Shown here: piece by piece, positions 42,933 through 50,391 of the stretch
Numbering within the stretch: position 1 is the stretch's first letter
Layout: every line of letters begins with the position of its first letter
From: Chitinophaga pinensis
Lineage (GTDB): Bacteria > Bacteroidota > Bacteroidia > UBA7662
Assembly (NCBI GenBank): GCA_945874665.1
Contig: CAMCHJ010000014.1
Coordinates: 1-50,391 of the forward strand
Direction: 5' to 3'
DNA length: 50,391 nucleotides
Made by a program: the position numbers and the translations under genes
Notes under the pieces: model-generated
Seen by the model: the letters and a program-made list of their open reading frames with translations, nothing else
Database searches by the model: none
Told to the model about the DNA's origin: nothing

Positions 42933-44876
42933 ATGGATATAGCAGTAAAACTGCCTGATGGCAGTGTTCGAAATTACCCGCAAGGCAGCTCCGCCCTTGA
43001 TGTGGCAAAAAGTATCAGTGAAGGTCTAGCCCGTGTGGTTTTGGCCGCAGAAGTAAACGGTGAAGTTTGGGATTTGACGAGGGCCTTACCTGCAGCAGCC
43101 GATTTGAAGTTGCTCAAGTGGGAGGATGAGGGTGGTAAAAACGCCTTTTGGCACTCCACAGCCCATTTATTGGCAGAGGCCTTAGAGGATTTATACCCTG
43201 GAATCAAACTGGGCATTGGGCCACCTATAGAAAATGGTTTTTATTATGACATTGATTTCGGCGACACTTCTTTTTCCTCTTTAGATTTTGAGAAGGTAGA
43301 GGAAAAAATGGTCGAGTTGGTTAGCCAAGCCAATCCTTTTGTCCGTAAGGAGGTTTCGAAAGCAGAGGCCATTGCCTATTTTACAGCAAAGCAGGATCCT
43401 TACAAACTTGAGTTACTTGAAGGCCTCGAGGATGGTAGTATTACTTTTTATACGCAAGGTGCCTTTACAGATTTGTGTCGTGGACCGCATATACCCGATA
43501 CAGGCAAAATAAAAGCCATCAAAATACTCAACACCGCTGGTGCTTATTGGCGTGGTAATGAGAAAAACAAACAGCTTACACGTATTTACGCCATCAGCTT
43601 TCCTAATCCGAAAGATTTGAAGGCCCATTTGCACAACCTAGAAGAGGCTAAAAAACGCGATCACCGTAAGCTCGGCAAAGAGTTGGAGCTTTTTACCTTT
43701 AGCGAAAAAGTGGGCATGGGTTTGCCGCTTTGGCTGCCAAAGGGGGCCTTACTTCGGGAGCGATTGGAGAACTTTATGCGGAGAGCGCAGGTACGTGCAG
43801 GTTACGACCAAGTAATCACCCCACACATAGGCTCCAAGGCCTTGTATGTAACTTCTGGGCATTGGGAAAAGTACGGGCAAGATTCGTTTCGGCCAATTTA
43901 TACCCCGCATGAAGGAGAAGAATACCTCCTCAAGCCTATGAACTGTCCGCACCATTGCGAAATCTATAAAAGCAAGCCGCGTTCTTACAAGGATTTGCCA
44001 GTGCGATTAGCGGAATTTGGAACCGTTTACCGTTACGAGCAACATGGAGAGTTGCACGGATTAACACGGGTGAGAGGCTTTACGCAAGACGATGCGCATT
44101 TGTTTTGTCGCCCCGACCAAGTGAAAGAAGAGTTCAAAAAGGTAATCGACTTGGTGCTATACACCTTCAACGCCTTGGGCTTCAGCGAATACACTGCTCA
44201 AATTTCATTGCGTGATCCTGAAAATAAAACCAAGTACATCGGTTCTGATGAGGGTTGGCAAAAGGCAGAGTCTGCCATCATTGAAGCAGCTGCTGAAAAA
44301 GGCTTAATTACCGTAACTGAGCTTGGAGAGGCTGCTTTTTATGGGCCTAAACTCGACTTTATGGTACGTGATGCGCTAGGTCGCAAATGGCAATTGGGCA
44401 CCATTCAAGTCGATTACAACCTGCCTGAGCGCTTTGAACTTGAATATACCGGTGCTGATAACCAAAAATACCGCCCCGTCATGATTCACCGTGCTCCTTT
44501 TGGTTCAATGGAACGCTTTGTGGCAGTATTGCTCGAACATTGCGGTGGAAACTTCCCGCTTTGGCTTTCTCCTGACCAGGTTGCAGTGCTTCCCATCAGT
44601 GAAAAATTCAAAGATTACGCTGAAAATGTTTCACAGATGCTAAGAAATTCCGATATTCGCAGCTTCATTGATCACAGAGATGAAAAAATAGGACGGAAAA
44701 TTCGCGATGCGGAAGTTCAAAAAACGCCCTACATGCTCATAATCGGTGAAAAAGAAGGACTTAACGGAGAAGTAGCTGTTCGAAAACATGGCGAGGGTGA
44801 CCTTGGCGTAATGAGTTTGGCAGCCTTTGAAGCGCATTTGAATCAGGAAATAAACAGCCAGATCAGACCAAATTAA
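42933..44876 (+). CDS. thrS: Threonyl-tRNA synthetase
   Basis: A 647-residue class II synthetase. The TGS domain ([20 protein letters not shown]) and editing domain with [17 protein letters not shown] precede the catalytic core: motif 2 around [20 protein letters not shown], the zinc-binding [11 protein letters not shown] (Cys and His ligands) and motif 3 [13 protein letters not shown] near residue 530. The C-terminal anticodon-binding domain begins [10 protein letters not shown]. Length and full set of motifs match bacterial ThrRS. It begins 1 nt after the TPR lipoprotein gene and leads into infC 20 nt downstream. Confidence 0.96.
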
Positions 44877-44883
44877 ATTTTAA

Positions 44884-44899
44884 AAGGAGAAACACTATC
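44884..44899 (+). promoter_or_regulatory. Shine-Dalgarno and ATC start of infC
   Basis: AAGGAG (44884-44889) lies 7 nt before ATC (44897-44899), the first codon of the infC frame. Almost no other gene here has such a sequence. The pairing of a strong ribosome site with a rare start codon is the feature by which IF-3 controls its own synthesis in other bacteria. Confidence 0.75.
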
Positions 44900-45454
44900 G
44901 CACAGCAGCCATCGGCTCAGTCCCGCTTCAGGAGGGATAAACCCGTTGATCCAATCAACGAAAACATCAACCACCCTGAGGTAAGACTTGTAGGGGAAAA
45001 CGTAGAAAATGGCGTTTATCTCATTGCCAAAGCTTTAAAACTTGCAGATGAACTGGAGTTAGATCTGGTTATGATTACCGAGAACGCCAAACCGCCAGTT
45101 TGTCGCATTACGGATTACAGCAAATACCTGTACGAAAAGAAGAAGAAGGAAAAGGAAATCAAGGCGAATACGGTCAAAACGGTCATTAAAGAGATTCGTT
45201 TTGGTCCAAATACCGACGACCATGATTTCCAATTTAAATTGAAGCATGCCAAAAAATTCCTCGAAGAGGGTTCAAAAGTGAAAGCTTATGTACACTTCAG
45301 AGGAAGAGCAATAGTATTTAAGGAACGAGGTGAGCTTTTATTACTTACCTTTGCGCAAGAATTGGAAGACTTGGGTAAAGTGGAGAGCATGCCAAAGCTA
45401 GAAGGTAAGCGAATGTTTATCTTCATAGCACCCAAATCAACGAAATCGAAATAA
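44897..45454 (+). CDS. infC: Translation initiation factor IF-3
   Basis: A 185-residue IF-3. The N-terminal domain is [24 protein letters not shown], then [26 protein letters not shown]. The C-terminal domain is [38 protein letters not shown] and the ending [14 protein letters not shown]. Family similarity runs unbroken back to 44897, upstream of the first ATG at 45071, so ATG 45071 would give a truncated factor. The start is therefore ATC 44897, as is common for infC. IF-3 checks start-codon fidelity and dissociates the 70S ribosome. It is followed 18 nt later by rpmI and then rplT. Confidence 0.93.
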
Positions 45455-45472
45455 CATATAAAACAGAATACG

Positions 45473-45673
45473 ATGCCTAAAATGAAAACCCACTCCGGTG
45501 CCAAAAAGAGATTTACTCTTACCGGAACAGGAAAGATTAAAAGGAAGCACGCCGGTAAGCGTCACATTCTCACAAAGATGTCGACTACACAAAAGCGTCG
45601 TTTAACCAAAACTGGACTTGTTGATACAACAAACGAGTCACTCATCAAGAAACTTTTAACAATCGGAAAATAA
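45473..45673 (+). CDS. rpmI: 50S ribosomal protein L35
   Basis: A 66-residue ribosomal protein: [22 protein letters not shown] and [21 protein letters not shown] are the canonical L35 sequence, highly basic. It lies between infC and rplT in the conserved infC-rpmI-rplT order. In E. coli these genes are regulated by L20 acting on the leader or coupling sites; no such site is evident here. Confidence 0.97.
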
Positions 45674-45721
45674 TCAGTCAGTTTACAAGCGTTTCACGAC
45701 CACTGACAAAATTCAAAAGCT

Positions 45722-46066
45722 ATGCCTAGATCAGTAAACCACGTAGCATCACGCGCACGCCGCAAAAGAGTAATGAGCATGGCGAAGGGTTACTTCACCA
45801 CGCGTTCAACCGTTTATACCGTAGCTAAAAATGCGGTAGAAAAAGCATTAGGCTATGCCTACCGCGACCGTAAAGCAAAGAAGCGTCATTTCCGCACCTT
45901 GTGGATTGCCCGTATCAACGCTGCGGCTCGCCAAGAGGGCATGAGTTACTCAAAGTTCATGGGTAAATTAGGTAAGACCGAAATCGCACTTAACCGCAAG
46001 GTTTTGGCAGATTTGGCCATGAACCACCCAGAGGCTTTCAAAGCAGTAGTGGCCCAGACTAATTAA
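45722..46066 (+). CDS. rplT: 50S ribosomal protein L20
   Basis: A 114-residue ribosomal protein with the L20 opening [28 protein letters not shown] and the [13 protein letters not shown]-like middle (here [20 protein letters not shown]). It binds 23S rRNA early in 50S assembly. It is the last gene of the thrS-infC-rpmI-rplT set and is followed by a strong terminator. Confidence 0.97.
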
Positions 46067-46086
46067 TTTTAGTTCTGCCAAAATAG

Positions 46087-46119
46087 AATCCCAGTATTTT
46101 CGAATACTGGGATTTTTTT
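46087..46119 (+). terminator. rplT terminator
   Basis: AATCCCAGTATT (46087-46098) and AATACTGGGATT (46103-46114) pair perfectly over 12 bp with a TTCG tetraloop, then T5 follows. It overlaps the stop of the convergent TPR/PGSG gene in its T tract. Confidence 0.9.
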
Positions 46120-46957
46120 ATGGCGTTTGACGATCAATCTCGGCTAAAATCTCAGCTAATTTGGCTTTTCGGTTAGCCAGCATTTTATCATAGGCCAATA
46201 CAGAGGCCTTGTTGAACCCGCCAACGTAGTAGCGTTGCAGCCAGGGAAGAACTGCCAAAAAGGCATCTATTCCACCGTAAATGTTCAGGATTCTAAGCCA
46301 ATAGTAAACGAAAACACCATTGATGACCATGGAGTTGATGCCTTCGCGATATTCTTTAGCATAAAATTGCCCGGAACCAGGAATGACTGCGCTCATGATC
46401 AGGGCAGTGGTTGAGTTAGGCCTGTAAAATGCCTTTGGCTGGCTAAATAGCTGTTGAATGGTGCTGCTGTCGTTAATCAAAGCTAAAAAAGCTATTTCTG
46501 CCGCTTCAAATTGTTCCATTTCATATAAACAAATGGCCTTAAATAAATAGAATGAAGCGGCTTGTGCCTGATTCAGGGAGTCAAAATTAAGGCTGTACAA
46601 CTCGCTTAAGGCCAACGGGTAGTTGTTTTGCCCAAGCAAGGCCTTACACTTATTTAAAACAGCCGTGTTCTTGATGTCGTTTTGCTGGGTGCTGAAAAAA
46701 GCGCGATCAAAAAATTGACTCGCTTTTTCGAAATCTCCCTTTTCTAAATAGCACAGGCCTAATTGCATCTCAATGGCTGGATCTACTGCAGGATATACAG
46801 AGAAGGCCAGTTGATTATACGCATAAAGCGCTTGGTCGTAATTTTTAGCCGCAAAGGCCGCTGCGGCTGGGTGATGGTCGCTTTTGTATGTCTGCGCAGC
46901 AGCGGGCAAAGCCCACAGGACCACACTAGCGATAAAGCAGCAAACGCGAATATACAT
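46118..46957 (-). CDS. TPR/PGSG membrane protein A (YidD-associated, unknown function)
   Basis: A 279-residue exported protein: signal peptide (MYIRVCCFIASVVLWALPAAA), TPR-like helices about residues 30-170 (NYDQALYAYNQL, KGDFEKASQFF), then two hydrophobic helices near the end. The first of these carries AVIPGSGQFYAKEYREG at 191-206 and is followed by RYYVGGFNKA at 242-251. The same pattern recurs in the adjacent protein B (PGSGKVYAGKWKDG, FYAGGIYGA), so the two are paralogues. The PGSG motif is also found beside yidD in other bacteria, which I recall from general knowledge and have not searched. It is last in the operon; its 5' end overlaps gene B by 32 nt. Confidence 0.75.
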   Translation of the reverse strand: MYIRVCCFIASVVLWALPAAAQTYKSDHHPAAAAFAAKNYDQALYAYNQLAFSVYPAVDPAIEMQLGLCYLEKGDFEKASQFFDRAFFSTQQNDIKNTAVLNKCKALLGQNNYPLALSELYSLNFDSLNQAQAASFYLFKAICLYEMEQFEAAEIAFLALINDSSTIQQLFSQPKAFYRPNSTTALIMSAVIPGSGQFYAKEYREGINSMVINGVFVYYWLRILNIYGGIDAFLAVLPWLQRYYVGGFNKASVLAYDKMLANRKAKLAEILAEIDRQTP

Positions 46958-47780
46958 CAGCTTTGATTTTTGTCTCTAACTCGTGGTTGTAGATTTTGGC
47001 CGCTTTCTGAGCACCATAGATACCTCCGGCGTAGAATCCGAAGGCCAAGCCGCCGAATAACCAGCCATAAGGACTGCGGACACCAACACTGCGAAATCCG
47101 CGGTAGGAGCTGTAGGCATTGGCCCCAACAAAAAGTAAGGACACCAGGCCATCTTTCCACTTTCCTGCGTACACTTTTCCTGAACCTGGCAGGATGGTCG
47201 ACATGGCACCGGCCACAAAAGGCGATTTTCGAGCTTGCTGATGCCAGTCGTTTAAGGCTTGTACCAAGGTTGCGTCGTGCTGGTTTTCTATGCCAGGGAG
47301 ATGAATGTGATAGGTTTCGTTTTTGCTTTTTGCATTTAAAATGCTCATTCCTAAGCTCATATTGTCGGCATAAACAAGCATTTCAGGCTCGTTTTCATAG
47401 GCAATTCGAATCTCAGCCAATGCCGATGGTATCCAAACTAAATCTTTTAAGAGCAAAGCGTTTAAAATGATTTCCTTTTTGAAATAGGCGGCTTCTTGTT
47501 TGTTGAGGCTTGGCTGTAAGGAAAAGGTGTGTGCATAGGTAAGGGCACGTTTATAATTACCGTTTGTGCGATGGGTTTCTATCAGGGCGTGTTGAATACC
47601 TTCTGTTTCTGGATTTAGAAAATAAAGGCGCTCAAATTCTAATACGGCCAGTTCATATTGACCGGTTAGAATTAAATATTGGCCAAAGGAAATGTCATTC
47701 TTGATGGGGGCGGCTTGTGCCAGGACATCGGTTGACCAGAACGTAGCAGCCAAAAAATACAACAATATACTAGTGCGCAT
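46926..47780 (-). CDS. TPR/PGSG membrane protein B (YidD-associated, unknown function)
   Basis: A 284-residue exported protein with signal peptide MRTSILLYFLAATFWSTDVLAQ, TPR-like helices (QYELAVLEFERLYFLNPETE, NGNYKRALTYAHTF), then a membrane part with STILPGSGKVYAGKWKDGL at residues 194-212 and LFGGLAFGFYAGGIYGAQKAA near 241-261. It shares PGSG-x2-YA, a downstream G and a Y-x-GG motif with protein A. ATG 47780 is preferred because it starts the signal peptide; 47801 would add seven polar residues. The end of yidD overlaps its start by 11 nt. Function unknown; likely envelope. Confidence 0.75.
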   Translation of the reverse strand: MRTSILLYFLAATFWSTDVLAQAAPIKNDISFGQYLILTGQYELAVLEFERLYFLNPETEGIQHALIETHRTNGNYKRALTYAHTFSLQPSLNKQEAAYFKKEIILNALLLKDLVWIPSALAEIRIAYENEPEMLVYADNMSLGMSILNAKSKNETYHIHLPGIENQHDATLVQALNDWHQQARKSPFVAGAMSTILPGSGKVYAGKWKDGLVSLLFVGANAYSSYRGFRSVGVRSPYGWLFGGLAFGFYAGGIYGAQKAAKIYNHELETKIKADVYSRLLLYR

Positions 47781-48180
47781 GGTAGTGCTCGATTGGATCA
47801 TAATTCAGTCCGGTTACAGGTTCTTGGCGGTAATAACCCTGGTTCCAGCCATGACACCTCGTAAGGCGATCGAACGTGGCCAGGCTTCCCCGCATCACGC
47901 CAAAATTTTGAATGGCATGCAATCCAAAAACCGAACAGCTCGGTTCAAAGGTACAGCTGATCGCATCTTGTGAGGAAATGTACTTTTTATAAAAGGTAAA
48001 AGCAAATTTAGCCACAAACTCATATTCAGAGGCAGCCGTAAAGCCGAAGGAGTAATTGGTTCTGGTAGCTTTTGAAGCCGTATGTTCTTGCGCAAATGCC
48101 AAGTCATTTTTTAGCTGACTTTTTGCCGGCTGGTATAAAACGAGGCCAATAAGTGTAGATATTACTATTTTTGAGATCAT
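47770..48180 (-). CDS. yidD: YidD-family protein with N-terminal signal peptide
   Basis: A 136-residue protein. Residues about 57-115 are the YidD core: FAFTFYKKYISSQDAISCTFEPSCSVFG with the CxFxPxC-like cysteines C76 and C82, then NFGVMRGSLATFDRLTRCH with C109. Ordinary YidD is about 70-100 residues, short and unsignalled, and helps insert inner membrane proteins with YidC. This one has a leading signal peptide (MISKIVISTLIGLVLYQPAKSQ) and a 30-residue linker, so it may act at the periplasmic face. Its start lies inside the LolA-like gene, a 77-nt overlap. Confidence 0.82.
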   Translation of the reverse strand: MISKIVISTLIGLVLYQPAKSQLKNDLAFAQEHTASKATRTNYSFGFTAASEYEFVAKFAFTFYKKYISSQDAISCTFEPSCSVFGLHAIQNFGVMRGSLATFDRLTRCHGWNQGYYRQEPVTGLNYDPIEHYHAH

Positions 48181-48814
48181 TGAGCTTTACATTAACATAG
48201 GTAGTTTGTTGCCAGATTTCTTCTTTTTCTTCGATCACGATGTCCACAACTTCGGTAGGAAAAGGCAATCCTTGCATGGTCAAATAATTTTGATAAAACT
48301 GTTTTCTGATGATTTCGCCAGCTGGACTGTAAAAAAGAACCCCATATAACTGTTTGTTTTTAGTGCTGGTGGCCACTTTCCCGATTTTTTTGGAGGCTGC
48401 AGCAGGGGGTGCCCATGTGGTGATCACCAGGCCTTTGTCCTGTGCCACTTCTGTAATTTTAAAGCTCGAGTTTTTAAGTCCGTAATGACTCAACTCTTGC
48501 TTTAAACTCAAATGCATCACGCTGAGCTCAGGCCTGATGGACGCTGGCAATACTTCTACCACCGAATCATTGCGGACGACCCACTGGATGCTATCCATGA
48601 AAATCCATCGCTCCTTTTCTGGAAAGCGAATGTCATAAATAAGCCTGCCAACATGGATGTCGTAATAACAAGTGCCAAGCACAAGTTTCGATGCTGCCTT
48701 GCCTTTCACTTTCGTTTTTACTGAAAAATCACAGCTCACGCGACTAATTTGTTGGCCAGATGCCAATTCATTGGTAACGATAAAAAGCAAAACGACGAGG
48801 ATGTACTTTTGCAT
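48104..48814 (-). CDS. LolA-like periplasmic protein (unknown function)
   Basis: A 236-residue exported protein with signal peptide MQKYILVVLLFIVTNELASGQ. Segments such as SCDFSVKTKVKGKAASKLVLG, RLIYDIRFPEKERWIFMDS, GLPFPTEVVDIVIEEKEEIWQQTTYVNVKL resemble the beta-sheet pattern of LolA/outer membrane lipoprotein carriers, but similarity is weak and no lipid-binding signature is certain. It is the first gene of the yidD operon. LolA carries lipoproteins through the periplasm; a related lipid-handling role here is inference. Confidence 0.55.
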   Translation of the reverse strand: MQKYILVVLLFIVTNELASGQQISRVSCDFSVKTKVKGKAASKLVLGTCYYDIHVGRLIYDIRFPEKERWIFMDSIQWVVRNDSVVEVLPASIRPELSVMHLSLKQELSHYGLKNSSFKITEVAQDKGLVITTWAPPAAASKKIGKVATSTKNKQLYGVLFYSPAGEIIRKQFYQNYLTMQGLPFPTEVVDIVIEEKEEIWQQTTYVNVKLNDLKNSNIYTYWPRFIPAGKKSAKK

Positions 48815-48819
48815 AAGGC

Positions 48820-48852
48820 AAAAAAAACGCCGTATCTCAAAGAAATACGGCG
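48820..48852 (-). terminator. Terminator between the small secreted protein and LolA-like genes
   Basis: CGCCGTAT (48828-48835) and ATACGGCG (48845-48852) form a perfect 8-bp stem with a 9-nt loop, then eight T on the minus strand. It ends the upstream 142-residue gene, 19 nt past its stop, and lies 6 nt before the LolA-like ATG, so it also sits in that gene's start region. Confidence 0.75.
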
Positions 48853-48870
48853 CTTGCTTTTAACATTTTG

Positions 48871-49299
48871 TTAAGGGGTTGCAGTTGTGAGGCTAGTTGA
48901 ATAGGCTCCACCGCTGATGGCGCTTAACACTACACTTACGCCTGTTCCGATCCAGAACGATAGTTTTTCGTCTTTCGACTTATCGCTGTTGATGGCTACA
49001 ACGAAGAAGCCAACTGGCCAGCAGCAAAAGCCCCAAGCGAATGAGCCCCATTCCATATCGTCCAAGCTCCAAGAAGCTTGGTTGAGCCCTAAGCCAGCAA
49101 GCTGAGTACCCCATTTAGCTGAAGTTTCTACTTCTTCTAAACTGAAGCCGTTCATACTTACTTCTTGTTCCAATTGACTCAAAGTAGTCATTTCTGTTCC
49201 AAATGCGACAGCATCGTAGCTGAAGTCATCCGCAGAAACAGAAGCAACTGCGTTCATGCCAAAGCAACACACAAATGCCAATGTTAATAGGTTTTTCAT
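48871..49299 (-). CDS. Small secreted hydrophobic protein of unknown function
   Basis: A 142-residue protein with signal peptide MKNLLTLAFVCCFGMNAVASVS. A helical region (TTLSQLEQEVSMNGFSLEEVE) is followed by a tryptophan/cysteine-rich membrane segment WGSFAWGFCCWPVGFFVVAI near residues 86-105. A second hydrophobic segment follows. I do not recognise a named family; similar small exported proteins with a CCWP segment appear in Bacteroidota genomes, by recollection only. It precedes the yidD cluster but is separated from it by a terminator. Confidence 0.65.
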   Translation of the reverse strand: MKNLLTLAFVCCFGMNAVASVSADDFSYDAVAFGTEMTTLSQLEQEVSMNGFSLEEVETSAKWGTQLAGLGLNQASWSLDDMEWGSFAWGFCCWPVGFFVVAINSDKSKDEKLSFWIGTGVSVVLSAISGGAYSTSLTTATP

Positions 49300-49377
49300 A
49301 ACATGTTTTTTAAGGTTCTGGAAATATACGCAAATCTGATAGATTAAAAAAATCTGGTTTAAAAGTCGCTGTCCATC

Positions 49378-50391
49378 TTAAAAAGAGCGGATAGCGTGTT
49401 CAAAACGGTCAATTCCTGCTAACAACTGCGCTTCGGTTATCACCAAAGGCGGGGCCAAGCGTATGATGTTGCCATGCGTTGGCTTGGCAAGTAAACCGAG
49501 CTCCATCATTTTAACGCAAATGTTCCAGGCTGTTTTACTGTCTTCGTGATCATCAATCACCACGGCGTTTAACAAGCCTTTGCCGCGTACGAGCTGTAGG
49601 AGGCTGTATTTATTGACCAACACTTCCATTTCGGCGCGAAAGAGCTTACCAAGCCGATCTGCATTTTCAATCATGCCCTCCTGAATCAGCACCTCTAGGG
49701 AGGTCATGGCCACGCGACAACCCAGGGGATTTCCGCCAAAAGTGGAGCCATGTTCGCCTGGACCAACATTTAGCATTATATCGTCATCACAAAGCACTGC
49801 ACTTACTGGCAACACGCCACCTGCAAGGGCTTTGCCGAGTACTAAAATGTCGGGACGTACAGCTTCATGATCGCAGGCCAGCATTTTGCCTGTACGGCCG
49901 ATGCCTGTTTGAATTTCGTCTGCAATCATCAGCACCTGATTTTCTTCACAAATAGCTTTAACGCTTTGCAAATAACCAGCATCGGGCAGCACAACGCCTG
50001 CCTCACCTTGAATGGGCTCCAGCATAAAGGCCGCCACGTGAGGATCTTTAAGTGCTTCGCGCAAGGCGTCGAGGTCGTTATAAGGTATCAAATCGTAGCC
50101 GGGCACAAACGGTCCGAAGCCTTTTTTAGAGCTAGGATCGGTGGAAGAGGAGATGGCGCCAATGGATCGGCCCCAAAAATTGCCTGCTGCAAATACAATG
50201 CGCGCTTTATTTTCTGGAATTCCCTTTTTATCGTAGCCCCATCTTCTTGCCAATTTTACAGCCGTTTCAGCAGCTTCCACGCCTGTATTCATCGGCAAGA
50301 GTCGATTGTAGCCGAATAGTTCGGTCATAAATTGCTCATATTGACCAAGTACATTGTTGTGAAATGCGCGAGAAGTGAGGGTGATCTGACT
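49378..50391 (-). CDS. rocD: Ornithine--oxo-acid aminotransferase (partial)
   Basis: The 337 C-terminal residues of a class III PLP aminotransferase; the gene enters from the right edge, and the frame stays open to 50391 ([17 protein letters not shown] precedes the first internal Met). The PLP lysine is in [15 protein letters not shown]; the pyridine-ring Asp is in [13 protein letters not shown]. Other marks are [20 protein letters not shown] and [11 protein letters not shown]. The enzyme converts ornithine and 2-oxoglutarate to glutamate semialdehyde and glutamate. The start codon is outside the window. Acetylornithine aminotransferase is the alternative, but the [11 protein letters not shown] segment fits RocD. 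Confidence 0.9.

Follow-up and report, generated by a model that had tools for sequence, protein, structure and literature searches.

Introduction

To our knowledge, the activity of YidD has not been established, although the protein is nearly universal. Canonical copies (PF01809/TIGR00278) are encoded beside rnpA or yidC and carry no signal peptide. Its record as a factor in insertion efficiency goes back to cross-linking and in vitro transport work (Yu et al. 2011, cited in PMC8082313). The LolA superfamily, comprising LolA, LolB, LolA3, LprG, and NE2245, has several specialized members in Bacteroidota: F. johnsoniae has LolA1-3 and LolB1-2, and P. gingivalis has LolA3, as listed in two recent reports (PMC11885536, PMC13103446) that make no mention of YidD. 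In the flexirubin cluster of F. johnsoniae, LolA2/LolB2 illustrate the recruitment of a LolA-type carrier into a dedicated operon (PMC11885536). A third relevant group, DUF5683 (PF18935) and TM2 (PF05154), has a P-G-x-G-x-x-Y helix-break motif and a membrane hairpin.

Elements of all three groups occur together in the locus described here, in which a LolA-fold protein, an exported YidD paralog (YidD2), two paralogous TPR/PGSG proteins (A and B), and a small hairpin protein (S) are encoded side by side. Like the flexirubin cluster, the locus contains a LolA-type carrier; unlike it, it encodes a YidD, which PMC11885536 does not mention; TPR/PGSG or S proteins were likewise not encountered in that account of the cluster. 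Based on comparative sequence analysis, the locus is a genuine conserved envelope module that combines familiar domain families in a new way and has a putative function. No description of it was found in the open literature on YidD in combination with TPR, LolA, or DUF5683, and the lipocone paper does not mention YidD. Environmental Bacteroidota and their relatives commonly carry the module, whose genes had matched no specific family, or only generic ones (YidD, TPR, DUF5683). A YidD2 that has two obligatory partners and a candidate client represents a genetically simple way to learn the role of the YidD domain.

Results and Discussion

Organization of the Locus

The window, a 50,391-nt stretch of Chitinophaga pinensis DNA, had been described in a first-pass annotation as containing four minus-strand ORFs that encode, in order, a LolA-like protein, YidD, and two PGSG proteins, with overlaps of 77, 11, and 32 nt. 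This arrangement was reproduced, and the genes form one overlapping transcription unit: the lolA-like gene (48104-48814, minus strand; 236 aa), yidD2 (47770-48180, minus strand; 136 aa), A (46926-47780, minus strand; 284 aa, with a possible alternative in-frame ATG start at 47801), and B (46118-46957, minus strand; 279 aa). The unit extends further than was claimed, in that a fifth gene, S (48871-49299, minus strand; 142 aa), lies one gene earlier and had been overlooked. A terminator-like hairpin of 14 pairs followed by a T run (48825-48855, minus strand) separates S from the lolA-like gene. Another hairpin, of 12 pairs and then a short T-rich tail (46087-46114, minus strand), lies 3' of B and is probably the end of the transcript, which is convergent with rplT. 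The N-termini of the four proteins annotated initially resemble Sec signal peptides, as had been proposed; the assignment of signal peptides and topology is based on visual inspection and on the model of a single chain.

The module is flanked by thrS-infC-rpmI-rplT and, at its opposite end, by an aminotransferase gene together with ftsY-like and rimO-like genes (window positions 42933-50328). The same setting is common to G001, G002, G009, and G011, and is partially present in G007.

YidD2 Is a Distinct, Signal-Bearing YidD Paralog

Both family profiles confirm the assignment to YidD, with 64.7 bits to Pfam PF01809 (cut-off 27; 6.5e-18) and 60.1 bits to NCBIfam TIGR00278 (cut-off 40; 1.4e-16). 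YidD2 has the domain and the C-x5-C and R-x2-R-C motif positions in common with canonical YidD. It differs in a signal-bearing extension, in SSQD replacing SPLL-type residues, and in being tied to A/B, whereas canonical YidD is tied to rnpA/yidC. The extension is reflected in the number of residues before the first conserved Cys, which is 62-97 in 75 YidD2 sequences and mostly 16-31 in canonical copies. SxQD residues are nearly invariant in the YidD2 alignment (A11), and in one large lineage the third Cys has become Asp. In a tree of 80 columns, calculated by a quick method and with long-branch warnings, a single branch divides YidD2 and canonical YidD into separate clades (SH-aLRT 97). Genomes that carry YidD2 retain a canonical YidD elsewhere; in the window genome it is found at G000:C4:110068 (L061), adjoining an rnpA-like ORF.

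These properties bear on whether YidD2, together with A/B, could be a general YidC/SecYEG accessory that acts from the periplasm on integral proteins of the inner membrane, S being just one of its clients or a small regulatory protein. The homology to an insertion factor identified by cross-linking, the presence of TPR scaffolds, which are typical of chaperone complexes, and the existence of the core without S and the LolA-like protein would all be in keeping with such a role. A general factor, however, needs no dedicated LolA-like gene and S, the canonical protein is kept in the same genomes, and YidD2 forms a separate clade with its own signal sequence and SSQD-type motif, so that we consider a general accessory distinctly unlikely.

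YidD2 Is Obligatorily Linked to A and B

In a survey of 198 near-complete Bacteroidota genomes, a strong match to A was present in 25, all of which are among the 28 genomes with at least two YidD, and in 0 of the 170 genomes with a single YidD (Fisher 9e-29, kinship uncorrected). The three genomes with an extra YidD and no A contain a short leaderless YidD type, with A/B not beside it. At all 25 loci, a YidD ORF is directly upstream of A or, at L084, fused to it. A second, divergent YidD was also found in 11 of 40 relatives besides the window genome, 10 of them with a matching A by search; the trio in G018 was recognized on inspection, via its YidD. A single-sequence search with P0003 misses distant copies, such as those in G018.

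Scanning a genome collection with A yielded 351 relatives, from which 80 loci were kept; as scan patterns, the alignments A6 and A1 were too diverse and A7 worked. Most of the 80 loci belong to Bacteroidales, Chitinophagales, Saprospiraceae, Flavobacteriales, Marivirga, Emticicia, and Cyclobacterium, and others are labeled in their records as Ignavibacteria, Kapaibacteria, KSB1, Latescibacterota, Poribacteria, Spirochaetales, and Aminicenantes. A few unusual phylum labels of metagenome-assembled genomes (MAGs), such as those of L113 (Gammaproteobacteria) and L138 (Rickettsiales), were not trusted. When the phylum of G245, an Aminicenantes-labeled MAG, was searched, the sole full match was G245 itself, which indicates that the module is rare there or that the match reflects a binning error.

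The dominant order among the 80 loci is S-LolA-YidD2-A-B, with median gaps of -44 nt (LolA-YidD2), -4 nt (YidD2-A), and -38 nt (A-B). Two architectures can be distinguished, a core of YidD2-A-B and an extended form with the LolA-like protein and S. Because gene order is kept across many families and several phyla, comparison of the sequences places the five-gene arrangement far beyond chance. The whole region is common to close relatives by descent, as would be expected for chance or inherited adjacency with no shared function; set against this are the order across many families and phyla, the kept overlaps, the two kinds of fusion, and split loci from which no part has been lost. Adjacency of that kind is already refuted as far as comparative genomics can do so, and the probability left to it is negligible. 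The first-pass annotation had proposed one conserved and previously undescribed envelope unit, a proposal that is supported by the gene order and linkage and that withstood both refuting tests set for it: the PGSG genes lie close to yidD in relatives, and the two co-occur almost absolutely.

A and B Are Full-Length Paralogs and Candidate Scaffolds for YidD2

A and B each consist of a TPR domain and a membrane hairpin, with the motifs PGSGKVYA and later FYAGGIYG in A, and PGSGQFYA and later YYVGG in B. Although their pairwise BLASTP match is weak (3e-6, 14/40 identities), profile-profile comparison establishes homology over the full length (prob 99.9, E 2e-37), and the two proteins are therefore ancient paralogs rather than mere tail-sharers, which extends the earlier observation of a common TPR region and membrane tail. 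B matches Pfam TPR_19 (5e-8). The AlphaFold2 model of A (pLDDT 92.8) contains helical repeats, a short helix, the PGSG break, and long helices at 208-235 and 237-282; a Foldseek search with it returned generic TPR matches only, none at E<=0.001.

With 23.5 bits for B and 12.7 bits for A, both proteins fall below the DUF5683 gathering score of 26.7 and are related to this family without being members. Weak DUF5683 matches were obtained for 31 of 37 B relatives and 11 of 34 A relatives, and TM2 matches for 6 of 34 A relatives. The motif and hairpin of A/B are those of DUF5683 and TM2, but the tail comes after TPRs and as a paired duplication beside YidD2. One B, at L143, is extended at its C-terminus by a long TPR-like region (607 aa ORF).

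Natural fusions join YidD2 to A at L084 (400 aa) and L202 (415 aa), and B to YidD2 at L165 (403 aa). Fusions and linkage together support a physical association of YidD2 with A/B. Given the two-helix hairpin of A and the homology of A and B, both fusion orders agree with a periplasmic location of the TPRs, of YidD2, and of the B C-terminus: with the TPRs in the periplasm, the modeled hairpin would return the C-terminus to the same side, as suits a YidD2 attached C-terminally to B and a signal-bearing YidD2 placed N-terminally of A. A mixed YidD2 and A alignment on a natural fusion, intended for an interface model, was dropped, its TPR part being mis-aligned against YidD2. The PGSG proteins had been cast as either cargo or scaffold of the unit. 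Both are obligatory and occur as a pair, mostly with one copy of each per locus, and in some genomes they are fused to YidD2; a scaffold role is therefore the more likely of the two.

The First Gene of the Overlapping Unit Encodes a Protein with a Predicted LolA Fold

The window LolA-like protein has no significant Pfam or NCBIfam match of its own, PF03548 included, and 5 of 43 relatives match PF17131 (LolA_like), the wider family only. Its AlphaFold2 model (pLDDT 93.5) displays a LolA-type sheet, antiparallel and curved, with helices closing it. The best Foldseek match is 3buu, of the LolA superfamily (E 2.9e-11), with 3bk5 also among the best; P. aeruginosa LolA (4.5e-9) and P. gingivalis LolA3 (1.4e-8) follow, and the best 4 of 93 matches at E<=1e-3 come from the LolA superfamily or from lipoprotein sorting. 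The PF17131 matches of the relatives and this high-confidence model uphold the original label of LolA-like. The model also suggests that the protein probably has a hydrophobic groove. It has the predicted fold and signal peptide in common with the LolA superfamily, and differs in the missing PF03548 match, and in its place within a conserved operon of its own, in which no link to LolB/LolCDE was seen.

The fold raises the prospect of a Lol pathway branch for a subset of lipoproteins, and several specialized LolA paralogs are indeed known from Bacteroidota (PMC11885536, PMC13103446). We regard such a branch as improbable: the window genome has a separate LolA (PF03548, 1e-14), no LolB, LolC, LolD, or LolE was seen linked to the module or present in the window operon, no lipobox was noted in S by inspection, and many YidD2-A-B loci have no LolA-like gene.

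S Is a Small Hairpin Protein Tied to the LolA-Like Gene

S carries a signal peptide and an acidic helical stretch, its C-terminal part is a transmembrane hairpin (WGFCCWPVGFFVV...KLSFWIGTGVSVVLSAI), and it falls into no Pfam family. It lies upstream of the lolA-like gene at 52 of the 80 loci, in one to three tandem copies (a single copy in the window genome), and all 52 loci with S have the LolA-like gene, with 0 lacking it. In the phylum survey, S is present in 2 of 198 Bacteroidota genomes, the window genome counted. Hairpins of <= -10 kcal/mol occur in 11 of 26 relatives with a comparable S-lolA gap, where shuffles expect 0.1. Among loci with the LolA-like gene and no S, 6 of 11 encode a small hairpin protein where S would otherwise lie, and its profile is related to that of S (hhalign 92.6%, E 5e-7); these come from Kapaibacteria, KSB1, Aminicenantes, and Latescibacterota.

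Copy number, the terminator, and co-occurrence make S a better cargo candidate than the PGSG proteins. It could equally be a subunit. Since YidD2-A-B exists without S and the LolA-like protein, at 10 or more of the 80 loci and at most YidD2 loci of the phylum survey, S cannot be the sole client of the core. No lipobox was noted on inspection of S, which was not seen to be a lipoprotein. A profile comparison of S and A matched the signal peptide only and gives no support for S as a shortened A tail.

A subunit role for S is the one it would have if the module served lipid transfer, with YidD2, A/B, and S as an inner-membrane lipid-handling complex and the LolA-like protein as a periplasmic lipid carrier comparable to LprG or the flexirubin LolA2. 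LolA folds carry lipids and pigments too, LprG with bound lipid is among the fold matches of the LolA-like model, LolA2/LolB2 lie within the F. johnsoniae flexirubin operon (PMC11885536), and the hairpin of S could be structural. Yet the conserved core has no recurrent gene for lipid biosynthesis, neither an ATPase nor a LolB-like outer-membrane partner was found in the loci inspected, and tandem S genes and the terminator suit an abundant product better than a subunit. Lipid transfer has a real, though small, chance of being correct.

A Model for the Module

The suggestion that the unit handles insertion or sorting of an envelope component remains plausible, and a more specific mechanism can be proposed. 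All parts of the module would be exported. A and B would reside in the inner membrane through their PGSG hairpins, with the TPRs in the periplasm, and would form a heteromeric scaffold that holds YidD2 on the periplasmic face of the membrane. S, made in excess because the terminator would partly uncouple it from the machinery genes, would reach the envelope through Sec. YidD2 and A/B may then help the hairpin of S to fold, to insert, or to be extracted, and the LolA-like carrier may shield or ferry S, or lipid bound to S, possibly toward the outer membrane; YidD2-A-B loci without it would perform the membrane step and not the carrier step. That the conserved five-gene module handles S by this mechanism is our tentative preference, with somewhat less than an even chance of being correct.

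A more far-reaching version, which we consider doubtful, is an undescribed route of periplasmic membrane-protein biogenesis in Bacteroidota and neighboring phyla, in which YidD2 on the A/B complex would insert, fold, or extract S and the LolA-fold carrier would move it across the periplasm, a form of non-lipoprotein hairpin transport. If S were indeed a LolA-carried hairpin protein, the reach of the LolA superfamily would widen from lipoproteins and lipids to membrane hairpins. PADLOC models for anti-phage defense matched 0 of the 5 module proteins.

Variant Loci

At L147, L154, and L159, A stands alone and LolA-YidD2-B is found at a second locus of the same genome; two of these three genomes hold a second paralogous set. 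Second LolA-YidD2-A-B sets, or parts of them, on the same genome or contig were observed at L203 and L204 (the genomes of L154 and L159), L143, L115, and L121. YidD2 is relocated after B or elsewhere, with LolA-A-B remaining together, at L104 (7528-7935), L116 (6652-7113), and L102; loci of this kind come from some Flavobacteriales, Saprospiraceae, and uncultured Bacteroidota MAGs.

Outside Bacteroidota, the two TM segments of the S-position proteins are joined by a GKSPEYV-type loop that sets them apart from Bacteroidota S (L166 1456-1866, L171 2748-3146, L167 3117-3524, L162 1059-1457, L172 2542-2952, and L160 3029-3550). Finally, the leaderless YidD of the three genomes with an extra copy and no A represents a third type of ~96-116 aa, divergent, free of A/B partners, and with a response-regulator-like gene nearby; the three genomes belong to one class (L210 1390-1698, L211 1381-1728, and L212 1399-1686).
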